Positions 36,168 through 43,342 of a stretch of 60,831 nt of DNA are shown in pieces. This DNA comes from Synechococcus sp. Cruz-7E5. Lineage in GTDB: Bacteria > Cyanobacteriota > Cyanobacteriia > PCC-6307 > Cyanobiaceae. The notes beneath the pieces are model-generated. The model had not been told where the DNA came from, searched no databases, and saw nothing but the letters and a program-made list of their open reading frames with translations. Made by a program: the position numbers and the translations under genes. The stretch is from NCBI RefSeq assembly GCF_024345995.1, contig NZ_JAGQCE010000016.1, forward strand, positions 1 through 60,831, written 5' to 3'. Each line of letters opens with the position of its first letter. The stretch's first letter is position 1.

Positions 36168-38096
36168 TCAAGCCGGCAGGGAGGTCAAGGACGAGTTCTG
36201 AGCCTCCTTGTCATGGCTGGCCTGCAGTTGCCAAAGGTGGGCATAAAGACCGTCCCTTTCAAGCAGCTCGCCATGGCGGCCGCGTTCCACGATCCGCCCC
36301 TGATCCAGCACGCAGATCTGATCGGCAGTCACGATCGTGCTCAGCCGGTGGGCGATCACCAGCACCGTGCACTGCCGCTCGAACCGCTCGATCGCCTGCT
36401 GCACCAGCCGCTCGCTCTGGCTGTCGAGGGCGCTGGTGGCCTCATCAAGGATCAGCATTTCCGGCTGGCGCAGAATCGCCCGGGCCAGCGAGAGGCGCTG
36501 CCGCTGCCCGCCACTGAGCCGGTAGCCCCGTTCACCCACGAGGGTGGCATAGCCATCCGGCAAGGCCTCGATGAAGCCGGACGCCTGGGCCTTCGCTGCC
36601 GCCGCCTCGATCGCCGCCGGTCTGGCCCCTGGGCAACCGAAGGCGATATTGGCGGCTAGCGAGGCGTTGAACAGGAACGTGTCCTGGCTCACCACCCCCA
36701 GCCGCTGTTGCCAGCTGGCCAGATCCAGTTCCGCCAGATCGGTGCCATCGATCAGGATCCTGCCGTTGGTGGGTGCATAAAGCCCCACCAGCAGATCAGC
36801 GATCGAACTCTTGCCCGCGCCGCTCGCCCCCACCAGAGCCACGGTTTGGCCCTTCGGAATCGTCAGCTCGATTTCCGTCAAGGCGGGGTCCAGGTCCGGG
36901 CTGTAGCGCAGTCCCACCGCTTCGAAGCGAATGTCACGCTGCAGCCCGTGAAACGGAACTCCGCCTCGTCGGCGGAAGTCTTTGTCGTCGGGGCTGAGGA
37001 TCTCGTTTAGCCGATCGATGTCGGCAGAGTTGATGGTGAGCGTGTTGAAGATGCCCGCAATGCCTCCAAGCCTCACGTTGAACCGCTGCAACGCCAGCAC
37101 GAACGTCACCAGGCTGGGCAGAACCCCAGTGCTGCGGCTGCCAAACGCCAGCAGGCTCACCGCACCGATCACGGCGATCGCCGCGATCGGCAGAAAGCCT
37201 GAGAGCGGCCCCACCACCTGCTCCAGACGGTTCTGGCGCCGCAGCACGATTTCAAGCTCGCCCATGCGCGCCCGCAACGCCTGATCAGCCGCATCCAGCT
37301 GGCCGCTGCTGTGCAACAGCCGCAACCCCTGGATGTCTTCGGTGACCCGGCTTGAGATCTCCACTCCGATCTGGGTGAGACGCACCGAACCCCGCCTGAT
37401 GCGAGGCAGCAACACGCGCTGAACCAGCGCCAAGGCCACCGCCAGGCCGATCGCCACCAGCACCAGCCAGGGCGAAAGGCTCACCAGCACCGCCGCGTAG
37501 ACGCCGATCAACAGAACCTGAATCAACAGCTGACCCGACTGCTGGATCTGTCGTTGCACCGCCTCTGGTCCAGTGCTCGTGTGCTGGAGCAGGTCCCCCA
37601 CCCGATAGCGGCTGGCGCACGCATAGCTGAAGCCGAGAATCTGGCTGTGGATCAGAGCGGTGATCGAGCTGCGGCAGCGGGCCGAGAAATCCCCCAGGCT
37701 CACGGCGCTCCCATAGCTCATCAGCCCCTGGGTGGCCTGCATCAGCACCGCCACCGCCAGGAGCAGCAGAAACAGGGGCGTAAGTGGCAGCCCACCCATC
37801 AGTTCCACAAGCGGCGGAAAGCGGCTGGTTAGCGGGTTGCTGGCCCAGTTCACCGCGGTGGGCTTTGAGAGCAGTTCCACCGCCAGAAAGATCACCGCCA
37901 GCGTGACCCCCTCAGTGAGCGCTCCCCCCAGGCTGGTGGCCAGATTGAAGGCCAGCAGCTTCCACTGTTGCCGTGCCGTGGCGCGGATCAACCGAGATGC
38001 GGGCCGCGGATCGAGGAAGGCCCCCACCAGGGGGCGCGTCAGACGGCGTACCAGCCGTGGGACCAGGCGGTGGCTCAAGGAGGGCTGAAGGTGCAA
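36168..38096 (-). CDS. MsbA-like ABC exporter (fused membrane and ATPase domains)
   Basis: A 642-residue half-transporter. Residues about 40-340 form the six-helix exporter domain. The ATPase has Walker A GASGAGKS (about 423-430), Q-loop VVSQDTFLF, signature LSGGQRQRLSLARAIL, Walker B MLILDEATSALD and the switch His in AHRLST. Such proteins flip lipid-linked sugars or other lipids and could serve as the flippase of this locus, since no Wzx-type protein is present here. It stands alone, with antitoxin debris on one side and PIN and gmd/fcl debris on the other. Confidence 0.9.
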   Translation of the reverse strand: MHLQPSLSHRLVPRLVRRLTRPLVGAFLDPRPASRLIRATARQQWKLLAFNLATSLGGALTEGVTLAVIFLAVELLSKPTAVNWASNPLTSRFPPLVELMGGLPLTPLFLLLLAVAVLMQATQGLMSYGSAVSLGDFSARCRSSITALIHSQILGFSYACASRYRVGDLLQHTSTGPEAVQRQIQQSGQLLIQVLLIGVYAAVLVSLSPWLVLVAIGLAVALALVQRVLLPRIRRGSVRLTQIGVEISSRVTEDIQGLRLLHSSGQLDAADQALRARMGELEIVLRRQNRLEQVVGPLSGFLPIAAIAVIGAVSLLAFGSRSTGVLPSLVTFVLALQRFNVRLGGIAGIFNTLTINSADIDRLNEILSPDDKDFRRRGGVPFHGLQRDIRFEAVGLRYSPDLDPALTEIELTIPKGQTVALVGASGAGKSSIADLLVGLYAPTNGRILIDGTDLAELDLASWQQRLGVVSQDTFLFNASLAANIAFGCPGARPAAIEAAAAKAQASGFIEALPDGYATLVGERGYRLSGGQRQRLSLARAILRQPEMLILDEATSALDSQSERLVQQAIERFERQCTVLVIAHRLSTIVTADQICVLDQGRIVERGRHGELLERDGLYAHLWQLQASHDKEAQNSSLTSLPA

Positions 38097-38303: not shown

Positions 38304-39308
<1,005 letters not shown>

Positions 39309-39788
39309 TCAGGCTACAGCTGGGATGTGGCGATTGAAGGCGGGTGAGCGCAACGCCACAGTGCGCAGTACGGCGAGTTGCTCGGGCAAGGGGCTCGTTC
39401 CGGGATGGGTCTGCTGCACGTAGTCAAGGGCGTCCTGCCAGCCCATGCGGCGGCTGTGGATCAACCAGGCCATCGCCACGAGAGGTGAGCGCTCGACACC
39501 GGCCACGCAGTGGAGGTACATAGGACCGTGAGGGCGGAGCCTGGTCAGCTCAACCATGACCTCGCCCAGCTGTTCGACCGATGGCGGGCAGTCGTGCCGA
39601 TGATCCGGCAAAGGCATTCGAACCGAACGGAACCGATCGATGATCCCGATGGGGGGCGGAGCTTCCTCGGCCGCACAGAGGCTGACCACGACCTTGACAC
39701 CCTGTTGCTCGAGCCGATCAAGGTCAGCAGCGCATCGAGGAGCCGTTCCCACTGCCAATTCATCCTTCAACAACCAGGTGATGCGCAT
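39309..39788 (-). CDS. Dual-specificity (cysteine) protein phosphatase
   Basis: A 159-residue small phosphatase of the DSP/PTP-like fold. The P-loop is [10 protein letters not shown], with nucleophile Cys94 and phosphate-binding Arg100; an upstream PLPDHRHD stretch can supply the general-acid Asp. It would remove phosphate from Tyr/Ser/Thr residues or another phosphoester. It lies six bases after the polysaccharide export gene. In many capsule systems the export protein is paired with a low-molecular-weight tyrosine phosphatase (Wzb); here a DSP takes that position, so a role in export control is an inference from context. Confidence 0.85.
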
Positions 39789-39794
39789 GCAGGC

Positions 39795-40919
39795 TCAGTT
39801 GTTGTTGTCGAGCAGGCGGAACAGGGTCAATACATTGACCAGTCCGCTGAGGGGCTGGCTGATGGCCCCGATGGCATCGGAGCTGACCGCATAACGACTG
39901 CGGTTGACGATCACAGTGTCGCCATCAACCAATGGGGGATTCTTGGCTATGGAAACGCCCTGATTGAAATCGAGTGGGTAGGTCCGGCGCATGGCCGAAC
40001 CGTTGCGGTTGATCCGCACGAGTTCCAGCTTCGAGGTCTTGGCCCGCCAGGTTTCCACATTGCCGGCAGCCAGAATGGCCTGCATCAAGGGGGTGCTGGC
40101 TGGAACCTGCAGGCGACCCGGAGACTTCACTTCACCCACCACGTTGATGGTGATCTCCTTGGGCGCCAGGGTGGTCGCCGCCATCTCGGCGGTATTGGTG
40201 ACCAACTGCTCGGAGACCCGCTCCAGCTTGATCGTGTCGCCATCGAAAAGCAGGGGATTCTGAAGCTGGTCGCCATCCCGTACCAGGGCCAGCAGGTCAA
40301 CCCTGGCGCGCTTGAAGCGGGAGTCGGCCCCTGGTAGACGGCGCTGCACCACCACCCGTCGGAGGTTGGCCATTGAGGTGATGCCACCTGCCTTCTGGAT
40401 GGCGTCCACCAACGTGGGAGGGCCGCTGATCGACACCGGAGCCTCCGCCGTGGAGGTTTCCGAGGTGGTGAGCGTGTAGACGCCCGGACGCTCCACCTCA
40501 CCCACCACGGCGATGCGCAGGGGCCTGGGACGCACCACGCTCAGCTGCAGATCAGGTCGTTGCAGCTGCTTCCTGTAGAGCGATTCCAGCCAGAGACTGG
40601 CCTGGGAGATGGTCAGCCCCGACAGCCTGACGCTGCCAAGCAGGGGCAAGGAGGCGGTGCCGTCGTTGAGGATTTCGAGCGGGCCGCTGAGGTCCGAAAC
40701 GGCGAGAAATCTCAGACTGAGTCCATCACCGGAGCCCAGGATGTAGGCGTCGTCCTGAAGCATGGCGTCGCTGGCGCCAGGGACGGTCTCAGCCTGGGCC
40801 AGCCATCCCTGGGGAGGCTCCGTCGCCGCCACGGGAGCCAGAAAACTGGAGAAGCCAACCAACACAAGTAAGGGCAGTGCCCAACGCTTCCCCACCAGTT
40901 CCACACGCAAGCTCGCCAT
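39795..40919 (-). CDS. Wza-like polysaccharide export protein (SLBB domains)
   Basis: About 374 residues with a signal sequence (hydrophobic LPLLVLVGFSSFLAP). The poly_export domain begins AYILGSGDGLSLRFLAVSDL with LPLLGSVRLSGLTISQA; two SLBB-like units follow (RIAVVGEVERPGVYTL and INVVGEVKSPGRLQVP), each with a D-A-I-Q-x-A-G-G or M-Q-A-I-L-A-A-G-N helix. It should form the periplasmic/outer-membrane channel for the polymer. It has no clear lipobox Cys. M at 40919 starts the signal peptide (MASLRVELVGKRW). Divergent from the beta-barrel gene across 122 bases. Confidence 0.87.
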   Translation of the reverse strand: MASLRVELVGKRWALPLLVLVGFSSFLAPVAATEPPQGWLAQAETVPGASDAMLQDDAYILGSGDGLSLRFLAVSDLSGPLEILNDGTASLPLLGSVRLSGLTISQASLWLESLYRKQLQRPDLQLSVVRPRPLRIAVVGEVERPGVYTLTTSETSTAEAPVSISGPPTLVDAIQKAGGITSMANLRRVVVQRRLPGADSRFKRARVDLLALVRDGDQLQNPLLFDGDTIKLERVSEQLVTNTAEMAATTLAPKEITINVVGEVKSPGRLQVPASTPLMQAILAAGNVETWRAKTSKLELVRINRNGSAMRRTYPLDFNQGVSIAKNPPLVDGDTVIVNRSRYAVSSDAIGAISQPLSGLVNVLTLFRLLDNNN

Positions 40920-41041
40920 CGCGGAGACGGACAGTAGACCGAATGTTGCCACGCACCGGTTGAAAAGGTGGCGGTTGAGGGCCAGTCACCAGCTGGCCTT
41001 CACCGATACATTGTGCAAATTCGAATTCAGCAGTCATCGAC

Positions 41042-42433
41042 GTGTCAGCCCGGCTGCCTGGAACCAGTTTCACTCCATGGCTCAGCCTGCTGACCTCAAT
41101 TGGCGTGATCGCCGCTCCAGCGGTGGCTGCCCAGACACTTGTCTGGGACCTTCCGAGTGCCCCTCCTCCGGTGGTGGTCACCCCCAGCCAACCGCCGCCG
41201 CCGGTTCCGGTGGCATTGCCCATACTCAGGGCCAAAGTGCCCGACAGCGCTCCTGCCAGGCCAGCGCAAAGCCTCATCTGGGAAGCCGTCCCGCCGAATC
41301 CGCCACCGCTTCAACCGCCGCCGCCACTGCCGAACGCGTCCACCACCACGATCGCCTCAACCCGTGAGCGCAGCCTCGACTGGGAGCTCGTCCCTTTCGA
41401 CGACGGCAGCCTGGCCTTTTCACCAGCTGTCGGCGCAGCCAACCCCGGAGCTGGGGTGTTCGGCCAACTGCTCGCCAGGGAAACCAGCCTGCGCTGGTAT
41501 CTGGTTCCAGAGGATCAGGTGCTGGAGCCCTCCATCGCCCTCGCCAACGGCGATGCCAGGCCAGAGCCTCCTTACCTGCCTGAGCAGCCAGCACCGATCT
41601 GGCCCAAGGTCCGCGGCCTGGCCCGCGGCATCACCGTCAATGGTGATCCTTACCCCGACACCGGGCTGAATGTGCCCAACGGTTTCGCCCAGGACCCGGA
41701 GTTCACCGTGTCCACCACCCTCACCGGCACCAGCCGCACCCGCTCCTGCCGGGTCGCACCGGGCGGAGATTGGATCGACTGCGCCGACACGGAGGCCTAC
41801 CTGGACATCACCCCCTTCAAAGGGGAATACGCCAGCCTTGGGTTCCAGTACACCATCCAGAGCCTCACCAGCCGCAACCGGGGCACCGGTGTATTCGCCG
41901 GCCAGAGCATCGGCTTCCGCACAGCCGTGAACCTCACACCCACCACAGGTCTGGCCTTTGGCGGTGAACACATCATCCAGCTCGACAACACCACCGACCT
42001 GGGCCGAAACTTCTATCTGGTGCTCTCTCAGGCCATCCCCTTCAGCCGCGGCCAGAACCCCATCCTCCTGGTCGCCACCGCAGGCATCGGCTCCGACTTC
42101 TACGGCTATGCAGGCAATGGCACCCTGGGATCCACCAACTGCCTGAGCGGCAACAACGTCAGCAGCCTCAACTACCCCCAGGGCACCGACTGCTTCTGGG
42201 GTCCGATCGGAGCCCTGACCCTTCACCTGGGCAGCCAGGTTTCCATCGGCTACGAATGGTTTGGTTTCGGCATCGGGGCTGGGCTGTCGGTGCGCCCCAT
42301 CAAGGACATCCCCCTCACCTTCTCGCTGTACGCCACGGACTTCCTCGGCAACACTCCCAGCTACCTTGATGGGCTTTGCACCACTAACCCCTGCGAACCC
42401 AGATACTACGGCCGGCTGACAATGTCGTTCTGA
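41042..42433 (+). CDS. Exported proline-rich protein with probable outer-membrane barrel
   Basis: 463 residues, GTG start, signal peptide to about residue 30 (…APAVAA). Residues 30-155 are proline-rich and contain four imperfect repeats centred on Trp: TLVWDLP (W35), SLIWEAVP (W80), SLDWELVP (W114) and SLRWYLVP (W152). Residues about 180-463 alternate polar and hydrophobic residues with many aromatic ends, and the last residue is Phe, as in outer-membrane beta-barrels. I do not recognise a named family. It is divergent from the Wza-like gene and could be a partner for surface attachment or export, but this is an inference from position. Confidence 0.75.
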   Translation: MSARLPGTSFTPWLSLLTSIGVIAAPAVAAQTLVWDLPSAPPPVVVTPSQPPPPVPVALPILRAKVPDSAPARPAQSLIWEAVPPNPPPLQPPPPLPNASTTTIASTRERSLDWELVPFDDGSLAFSPAVGAANPGAGVFGQLLARETSLRWYLVPEDQVLEPSIALANGDARPEPPYLPEQPAPIWPKVRGLARGITVNGDPYPDTGLNVPNGFAQDPEFTVSTTLTGTSRTRSCRVAPGGDWIDCADTEAYLDITPFKGEYASLGFQYTIQSLTSRNRGTGVFAGQSIGFRTAVNLTPTTGLAFGGEHIIQLDNTTDLGRNFYLVLSQAIPFSRGQNPILLVATAGIGSDFYGYAGNGTLGSTNCLSGNNVSSLNYPQGTDCFWGPIGALTLHLGSQVSIGYEWFGFGIGAGLSVRPIKDIPLTFSLYATDFLGNTPSYLDGLCTTNPCEPRYYGRLTMSF

Positions 42434-42673
42434 TAGATCAATGAATTCAATGATTAATATCAACCGCACCTTTTGACTAACGCTGATCGTATAAACATGG
42501 ACTTCATTGTCGATCGATCGACAACAAGATCCATCCATGAGGCTGAAATCGGAGCAATAGCGCCAACGGCAGGGCCAGTGGACAGTTCTTTATCTGGTTT
42601 GTGTCAAGACGCTTCTAAGTCCTGAACTTGCTCTTACATTCAGAATTCAATGGCCTCTGAGATCATCCGGCCC

Positions 42674-43342
42674 ATGCGTTTCACCGTTCCTCTTGCGCTG
42701 GCAACGGCCACTGCATTCTCGGTCAGCGCCCTACCCGTGCGGGCCTTCCCAGGCGCAAGTGTCAATCTTGTGCGGGTAAACGGGAATGGGGTCACCGCCC
42801 TGCCCGGCCTCCAGCCCCCTCCGATTCAGACACCCCCGTCAACCCCTGGAACGGTCGAGCTGATCAGCCAGGCCTCTGGTGACAACCAGTCGGATCGAGA
42901 TGTCACGGTGCTGCCCACCGGCACTGAAGACCTGGAGATCCGCTATCAAGGGCCTCTGCCCCAGTTTTCCAGCTCTGATTACATTTCTGTTCGCAACAGG
43001 TCAACCGGTGAGGAGGTGGAGCGCATCTTCCTCAATTCCGATCGCGTCAGTTTCTCCAGCGATCGTCGCACCATCACCATCAATCCGGAAACCACCATCA
43101 CCGATGGTGCGGTGATCTGTGCCTTGCTTCCCGATGGGCCCGGCGCCTTACCCTCTCGCATCTCACCCTGTTGCTTCACCGTGGCCAAAGCAGCCGCGTA
43201 TGTCGAGCCGGCCGGGAGGCCCTTCCCCTGGTGGATCATTCCAGTTGGTCTTGGCCTTGGCGTAGGCATCTGCGCGCTCGCCGGCTGCTTTGACGGCGGT
43301 GGTGGCGGTGGCGGTGGCGGCGACAACAACGTCTCCCGCTGA
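42674..43342 (+). CDS. Secreted protein with Gly-rich tail (paralogue 1)
   Basis: About 222 residues. Signal peptide MRFTVPLALATATAFSVSAL up to PVRA, then mature start FPGASVNLVRVN. The middle is a soluble beta-rich region with a C-C pair near the end (SPCCF). A hydrophobic segment (WWIIPVGLGLGVGICALAG) follows, then a run of nine glycines and DNNVSR. Function unknown. The Met at 42674 aligns with the start of the paralogue at 43570, so the longer frame from 42650 is less likely. Followed by a terminator hairpin. Confidence 0.8.
   Translation: MRFTVPLALATATAFSVSALPVRAFPGASVNLVRVNGNGVTALPGLQPPPIQTPPSTPGTVELISQASGDNQSDRDVTVLPTGTEDLEIRYQGPLPQFSSSDYISVRNRSTGEEVERIFLNSDRVSFSSDRRTITINPETTITDGAVICALLPDGPGALPSRISPCCFTVAKAAAYVEPAGRPFPWWIIPVGLGLGVGICALAGCFDGGGGGGGGGDNNVSR

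Follow-up and report, generated by a model that had tools for sequence, protein, structure and literature searches.

A tryptophan-box arm on two dissimilar probable outer-membrane barrels of picocyanobacteria and its possible role in docking to OPX polysaccharide exporters

How exporters of the OPX (Wza-like) type pass their polymers across the outer membrane, and which of them need a barrel to do so, is an open question. It is posed by a window of 60,831 nucleotides from Synechococcus sp. Cruz-7E5 (the whole stretch of DNA that was analyzed, contig NZ_JAGQCE010000016.1), in which a gene was described in an earlier note as encoding four tryptophan-containing units in a proline-rich arm followed by a probable outer-membrane barrel, divergent from a Wza-like gene. 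The arm is real and conserved, it is undescribed within the searches reported here, and it is found on probable outer-membrane barrels of OPX exporters. We propose, as the probable reading, that the product of the gene is the barrel through which an OPX-type polysaccharide exporter is represented in the outer membrane, and that the arm is a portable periplasmic docking element. The chances are about even that the boxes form a modular docking code, in which an arm of 2–5 W boxes plugs at least two dissimilar barrels into OPX exporters, such that the pores would be swappable. The features of the locus are listed in Table 1.

Table 1. Features of the W-arm barrel locus (positions in the window).
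Feature	Position	Strand	Basis or remark
ABC exporter (ABC_membrane + ABC_tran), same polysaccharide region	36168..38096	-	Pfam
DSPc-type phosphatase	39309..39788	-	Domain match
OPX (Wza-like) gene, Poly_export + SLBB, 385 aa, proposed partner	39795..40952	-	Pfam
Divergent intergenic region, OPX / barrel gene	40953..41041	.	Gene coordinates
Type I W-arm barrel gene, 463 aa	41042..42433	+	ORF with GTG start
Signal peptide, residues 1-30 (...AVAA)	41042..41131	+	Assigned by eye
Proline-rich arm, residues 31-189	41132..41608	+	Expected in periplasm from barrel topology
W box 1, LVWDLP (W35), residues 33-38	41138..41155	+	Motif reading
W box 2, SLIWEAVP (W80), residues 77-84	41270..41293	+	Motif reading
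W box 3, SLDWELVP (W114), residues 111-118	41372..41395	+	Motif reading
W box 4, SLRWYLVP (W152), residues 149-156	41486..41509	+	Motif and 23-row alignment
Weak fifth box, PIWPK (W187), residues 185-189	41594..41608	+	Motif and alignment A1
Probable outer-membrane beta-barrel, residues 190-463	41609..42430	+	Profile homology; low-confidence model
Small protein ending FPWW-hydrophobic-polyGly, downstream of barrel	42650..43342	+	ORF, synteny
Tandem paralogue of the 42650-43342 protein, 57% identity	43570..44286	+	ORF, comparison

The reading frame of the type I gene is real, with its start in a column common to the aligned relatives, and the barrel is indicated by the C-terminal residues ...TMSF, by a strand-like alternation seen by eye and by the profile homology of residues 202–463. 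The description of a proline-rich arm that precedes a probable outer-membrane barrel is thus borne out, the barrel itself by profile homology and its fold as probable. The earlier note knew no named family with this layout, and we concur. The window protein matches nothing in Pfam or NCBIfam at E up to 1, its 23 aligned relatives yield weak Pfam matches to other families alone (best E 0.016), and the best matches among PDB sequences are to OmpX at E 0.1. Identity with a named family was therefore dropped, as none of the three collections gives a convincing match. An SLH domain, as in the SLH-anchored cyanobacterial porins, is likewise absent from the window protein in Pfam. AlphaFold2, given an alignment of 8 sequences, reached a mean pLDDT of 27.5 for the full length and 37.6 for the barrel alone, and the better of these low-confidence models, that of the barrel alone, contains 11–12 strands. 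The structure prediction envisaged in the earlier note therefore supplied strands and no confident model, which is why we call the barrel fold probable. In a Foldseek search with the low-confidence barrel model, the 50 matches listed are mostly barrel proteins at E 0.011 or worse, among them an invasin/intimin domain, a COG4313 channel, OMPLA and autotransporters, with PgaA at rank 35 (E 0.4), and the search and model together point to a barrel, perhaps of 12 strands.

Relatives of the type I protein are present in 51 of the 299 genomes of the order by BLAST and in 63 by profile, 11 of the latter through weak matches (E worse than 1e-18) counted irrespective of their arms, and a class-wide search gave matches in 99 of 388 genomes, many of them short and to the C-terminal half. 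The profile search, also foreseen as a check, retrieved these relatives, and profile comparison showed a remote relationship to an unnamed cyanobacterial barrel-like family (alignment A3). The homology to that family lies in the C-terminal region (hhalign probability 98.8%, E 5e-17, 215 columns), and its members have the strict W box in 0/20 arms examined and an OPX nearby in 2/20. Arm-bearing type I members were seen only within the window's own taxonomic family (label f1), which is what we mean by picocyanobacterial; the seven relatives with names belong to Synechococcus or Cyanobium. One member of the barrel family from outside f1 (L061 241-1944, L119 8499-10202) has SLH-like repeats, read by eye, in place of the arm, and it is divergent to an OPX gene. 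Searches for a second copy in the window's own genome, one of them run with no positive control, found none; a weak match on contig C12 was read as chance, and a search for viral relatives returned none.

The four units occur exactly where they had been placed, with Trp at 35, 80, 114, and 152, and W152 is invariant in a 23-row family alignment that extends down to 26% identity. The unit of box 1 (TLVWDLP) is one residue shorter than the other three, while the PIWPK element that precedes the barrel is kept in 8/8 rows of alignment A1. Six relatives of 82–92% identity retain the start together with the four boxes, and SynAce01 (78% identity) has lost the first box. Neither three copies of L-x-W-x-x-[VILA]-P nor four of [ST]-L-x-W-x(1-3)-P arose in any of 20000 shuffles of the 160-aa arm. 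Across the whole genome, the motif [FLIMV]-x-W-[EQ]-x-[FLIMV]-P searched as a DNA pattern, which sees two of the four window boxes, has 29 sites versus 25 for its backward control; hence single sites are attributable to chance and clustering alone counts, and the window gene holds the only same-strand pair of motifs within a few hundred bases in its genome (by eye). The scan for clustered strict motifs covered 1.3 Mb (the window and 68 stretches) and picked out 21 of 2248 ORF frames of at least 150 aa, 20 of which are W-arm barrels, the rule being strict enough to catch 20 of the about 50 such barrels in those stretches. The one frame that is no W-arm barrel is L075 19-2439.

The arms of the family are likewise distinct in composition. 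Cut at fixed distances, with some frames beginning upstream of the true start, they contain 3.28 Trp per 100 residues in 41 family rows versus 0.41 in 20 others. At least two arm Trp are present in 40/41 family rows (the window and L069-L108), and the strict motif [VLI]-x-W-[EQ]-x-[VLI] is found in 26/41 of them versus 0/20 rows from other cyanobacteria; L099 has a 41-residue arm without Trp. The flanking linker sequence and the number of boxes vary (2–5, by eye), and two boxes are kept in members from label g2, a group of AT-rich genomes of 1.4–1.8 Mb that may be Prochlorococcus-like to judge by their size and composition, even though their arms hold few prolines.

The neighborhood links the barrel to polymer export. 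Synteny and profile searches covered stretches of 11 to 20 kb at 38 loci of the family from beyond the genus, which had been picked by their barrel in 37 genomes (L104 and L105, which repeat L032 and L038, are left out of the 38 and counted in the arm and clustered-motif tallies), and they found an OPX gene in 24/38 stretches and both OPX and PCP (Wzz) in 20/38. The OPX gene adjoins the barrel gene in all seven named relatives (L032-L038), and linkage extends to 11 of 12 genus labels (L104 and L105 included), the exception being g8 with 0/5 loci. The 14/38 stretches with no OPX are the five of g8, seven of g2, and two of g16, and each of their genomes has an OPX match. Gene order is variable, with barrel-OPX-PCP in L108, OPX-PCP-barrel in L103, and PCP-phosphatase-barrel beside a divergent OPX in L088, where the phosphatase is of the DSPc type also found in the window. 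The arm-less barrels from other cyanobacteria, taken for comparison, are accompanied by OPX in 2/20 stretches and by PCP in 4/20. Across the 299 genomes, OPX is present in 62/63 genomes with a type I match versus 144/236 without (Fisher p 1e-10, a value inflated by genome kinship). The type I genome without OPX (G265) is 88% complete, and G112, of the same genus, has neither barrel nor OPX. The presence of OPX nearby, far beyond the genus, together with this co-occurrence, leads us to link the barrel to polymer export. The proposal of a role in export or attachment of the polymer is upheld to that extent, the two roles not being separated by these data. In the clade of the window the OPX is adjacent to the barrel and PCP is not nearby. 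PCP as a necessary partner is therefore not favored, although the window's own genome has one weak Wzz match elsewhere (E 1.5e-4, below the curated cut-off).

Genomes with OPX and no type I barrel might carry the arm on another protein, and this prediction was set against 20 OPX loci from such genomes, the best-scoring among the matches listed and one place per genome. A W-box scan that detected 13/16 positive-control loci and 0/20 negative ones was positive at L148 only, so the idea of W boxes beside every OPX was rejected (1/20). A looser scan gave a likely membrane protein in 13/20 loci, which was set aside by eye. Directly after OPX and PCP in L148 is a 664-aa ORF with four W boxes. A comparison of its product with the profile of type I gives nothing at E up to 1, and its sole Pfam match is to DUF5777, 'membrane bound beta barrel', at E 0.28. 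Its barrel, which we term type II, is ~540 aa with undetectable similarity to that of type I. Type II is found in 66/299 genomes, 63 of which have OPX, and the two types seldom occur together (3 genomes, Fisher p 6e-5, again inflated by kinship). With either type present, OPX is found in 122/126 genomes versus 84/173 with neither. An arm was read in 28/30 type II rows fetched and at least two strict motifs in 9/30, where all 30 are counted, including L172 and L173, which gave no arm because of an offset, and L155 and L157, which are cut by contig ends (the arm of L157 to 9 residues with no Trp). At least 22/66 type II genes are within 4 kb of an OPX match (by eye). In the six loci L183-L188, which were fetched since they appeared linked, OPX, PCP, and type II follow one another with little or nothing in between, and two g2 loci (L189, L190) have type II with no OPX in a 10-kb stretch. 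Short type II forms of about 320 aa with two W boxes are also seen in g2 (L179-L182).

The arm, rather than the barrel, is the most shared element of the two types. Comparison of their profiles (in alignment A5 the first row is short of about 120 C-terminal residues owing to the coordinates chosen) gives no alignment between the barrels and a single one overall, of 26 columns that include two W boxes (E 7e-4, probability 26%). The residues around the Trp are alike in both, with L/V/I/P at -2, E/Q at +1, P most common at +2, V/L/I at +3, and P at +4. As the 26-column match is short, the arms may be alike by common descent or by convergence, and the barrels themselves may have a very remote common ancestor.

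A tree of OPX proteins (53 rows, rooted for drawing only, with L032-L038, L104, and L105 left out) contains clades that differ in their barrel neighbors, some placements on long branches being unsure (L097, L185, L108, and L083 among others). Clade A has 20 rows in which 13 type I and 7 type II neighbors are mixed, forcing at least 6 changes for type II, while clade B has 12 type I neighbors, the window included, and 3 rows with no nearby barrel. None of the 16 rows of clade C has a W-arm barrel nearby. Of the 20 OPX loci described above, the 4 that fall in clades A and B belong to genomes with a type II gene, full-length or short, and the genomes of the 16 in clade C have neither form (by eye). 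Clade C consists of L129, L131-L133, L135, L136, and L138-L147, which have no strong PCP match.

In the mechanism we propose, the signal peptide would take the protein into the periplasm, where its C-terminal ~270 residues would insert into the outer membrane as a barrel, leaving a flexible proline-rich arm with 2–5 boxes ([LVIP]-x-W-[EQ]-x-[VLI]-P) to hang below the membrane. Both ends of outer-membrane barrels are in the periplasm (figure legend, PMC9601211), hence the arm should face the OPX ring. Wza, an octamer according to PMC9601211, is such a ring of repeated subunits, and repeated short motifs with a preferred hydrophobic spacing suggest, as far as sequence can, multivalent binding to a repeated partner. 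The W boxes would bind the OPX ring in this manner and the arm would keep barrel and OPX in register, while the polymer would exit through, or be received at, the barrel. OPX is favored as the partner since in the window clade it lies near the barrel without PCP; at loci with an adjacent PCP, the arm might dock to that protein instead. The arm would be the conserved plug and the barrel the exchangeable part, because in other lineages the same place in the operon is filled by a ~540-aa barrel with a like arm. We infer the periplasmic location of the arm, its docking to OPX rather than to PCP or polymer, and the pore or receiving role of the barrel. The window OPX has a C-terminal amphipathic segment (by hydrophobic moment) and no Wza_C match at E up to 1, and the other OPX proteins printed have hydrophobic C-terminal segments by eye. 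A long OPX with an amphipathic end that possibly spans the membrane means that the barrel may not be the pore. Hence, the exit is either a composite of barrel and OPX, or it is a channel made by OPX, with the barrel there to receive or anchor.

Several other explanations must be weighed; they overlap, as some concern the arm and some the barrel. The strongest, which we consider a minority possibility, is that the protein is an accessory that holds or organizes polymer at the surface in the manner of Wzi, the lectin of group 1 capsules, with OPX alone as the channel. The amphipathic end of the OPX suits such a role, as does a small barrel with conserved charged residues that may be closed, and a protein of this kind may still dock by its arm. 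Wzi is also an outer-membrane barrel that accompanies a Wza-like OPX, but it has 18 strands and a helical plug (PMC9601211, PMC9603273), whereas the window protein is without any Pfam match at E up to 1 and so shows no sign of kinship to Wzi. Moreover, exchange with a barrel of twice the size would fit an exit or gate at least as well. A comparable pairing of an outer-membrane protein with a Wza-type OPX is that reported for GfcD and the Wza homologue GfcE in the group 4 capsule system of E. coli. No Pfam similarity was found between the window protein and GfcD, which to our knowledge has no W-box arm.

It is somewhat less likely again that the W boxes bind polysaccharide, their Trp residues stacking on sugar rings as a greasy slide that hands the chain from OPX to barrel, a reading compatible with the barrel role that we prefer. 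Sugar contact would be suited by the E or Q found directly after W at about half of the sites of either type, and the site beside an exporter fits it equally well. However, the hydrophobic residues at -2 and +3 and the proline at +4 in both types look rather like those of a peptide seated in the groove of a protein, and polymers presumably vary between strains while the motif stays alike. We consider it improbable that the arm acts as a tether between the outer membrane and either the cell wall or another common envelope protein, with the OPX neighborhood reflecting the ordinary clustering of envelope genes. The SLH-like repeats seen by eye at the arm position of the arm-less relative (L061/L119) do indicate that the N-terminal slot can hold a wall anchor, and copies with no OPX nearby keep the arm, but the co-occurrence of both barrel types with OPX speaks against a tether, as does the finding that 16/20 OPX loci from genomes without type I are in one clade with no W-arm barrel nearby. 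Finally, the reading of the repeats as nothing more than a functionless linker of low complexity and rich in proline, as the varying flanks and box number (2–5, by eye) might suggest, is very improbable in view of the 0/20000 shuffles, the W152 that is invariant in 23 rows, the two boxes kept in g2 genomes with few arm prolines, and the like boxes on a second type of barrel.

The closest known system is the composite OPX/beta-barrel translocon EpsY/EpsX of Myxococcus, in which, according to PMC9601211 and PMC9603273, a barrel gene is coupled to an OPX gene as it is here. As in the EpsY/EpsX polysaccharide loci, the setting is one of polysaccharide genes, and many of our loci have PCP close by. 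There are also differences. EpsX-like barrels are 18-stranded and of the AlgE/PgaA kind (PMC9601211), whereas the type I barrel looks small beside EpsX (11–12 strands in the low-confidence model) and that of type II looks larger, and the W-box arm on both types sets them apart from EpsX-like barrels. In PMC9601211, 93% of coupled barrels go with OPX proteins of up to 280 aa, and OPX proteins of that size mostly have one or the other of a coupled barrel and a helix at the C-terminus. The short, helix-less OPX of the EpsY/EpsX kind (up to 280 aa) is not the one found here, where OPX has 385 aa and a possible C-terminal helix. However, PMC9603273 records barrels in the vicinity of OPX from each of the three structural classes, and the mere presence of one next to a long OPX is therefore no novelty. 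The string 'cyanobacteri' occurs 0 times in the main texts of PMC9601211 and PMC9603273, and 'barrel' occurs 0 times in PMC4594306, a phylum-wide survey of cyanobacterial OPX and PCP from 2015. Searches of the open-licence PMC literature on OPX, beta-barrels, and polysaccharide in cyanobacteria, Synechococcus, and Prochlorococcus gave no description of the arm among the papers listed, judged by title or beginning of the abstract. Within these searches, an OPX/beta-barrel exporter built in a modular way by means of an arm is undescribed.

The loci described here have a barrel in addition to a long OPX that possibly ends in a helix, the two apparently joined by a repeated short motif. If modular docking is correct, exit pores can be exchanged over evolution with the docking arm retained. 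Should the small, AT-rich genomes be those of very abundant phototrophs, many of these organisms have both OPX and a W-arm barrel, which points to a surface-polysaccharide machine that might be relevant to contact with phages and grazers.

The divergent placement of the barrel gene next to a Wza-like gene is confirmed, the neighbor being an OPX with Poly_export and SLBB domains, but the shared promoter region suggested in the earlier note gained no support, since no promoter-like pair is present in 40953-41041, although cyanobacterial promoters may not fit the scan. A region rich in glycosyltransferases, which also holds a methyltransferase, a phosphatase, and an ABC exporter, ends with the barrel and OPX pair. 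The long run of glycosyltransferase genes with the methyltransferase extends over 4004-34592 (- strand), and several of its genes have no Pfam match at E up to 1e-4. A remnant at 38613-39266 (- strand), which we take to be of a GDP-mannose dehydratase-like gene, is in pieces with parts missing compared to the open copy in L103. On the other side of the barrel gene, the two small tandem proteins have no convincing Pfam or NCBIfam match. Each seems to have a signal peptide, and in the C-terminal part of each an FPWW-IPVGLGLGVGIC segment leads into poly-Gly and NVSR. Their relatives follow the barrel gene in other genera, even where the stretch contains no OPX (L073, L074, L080).
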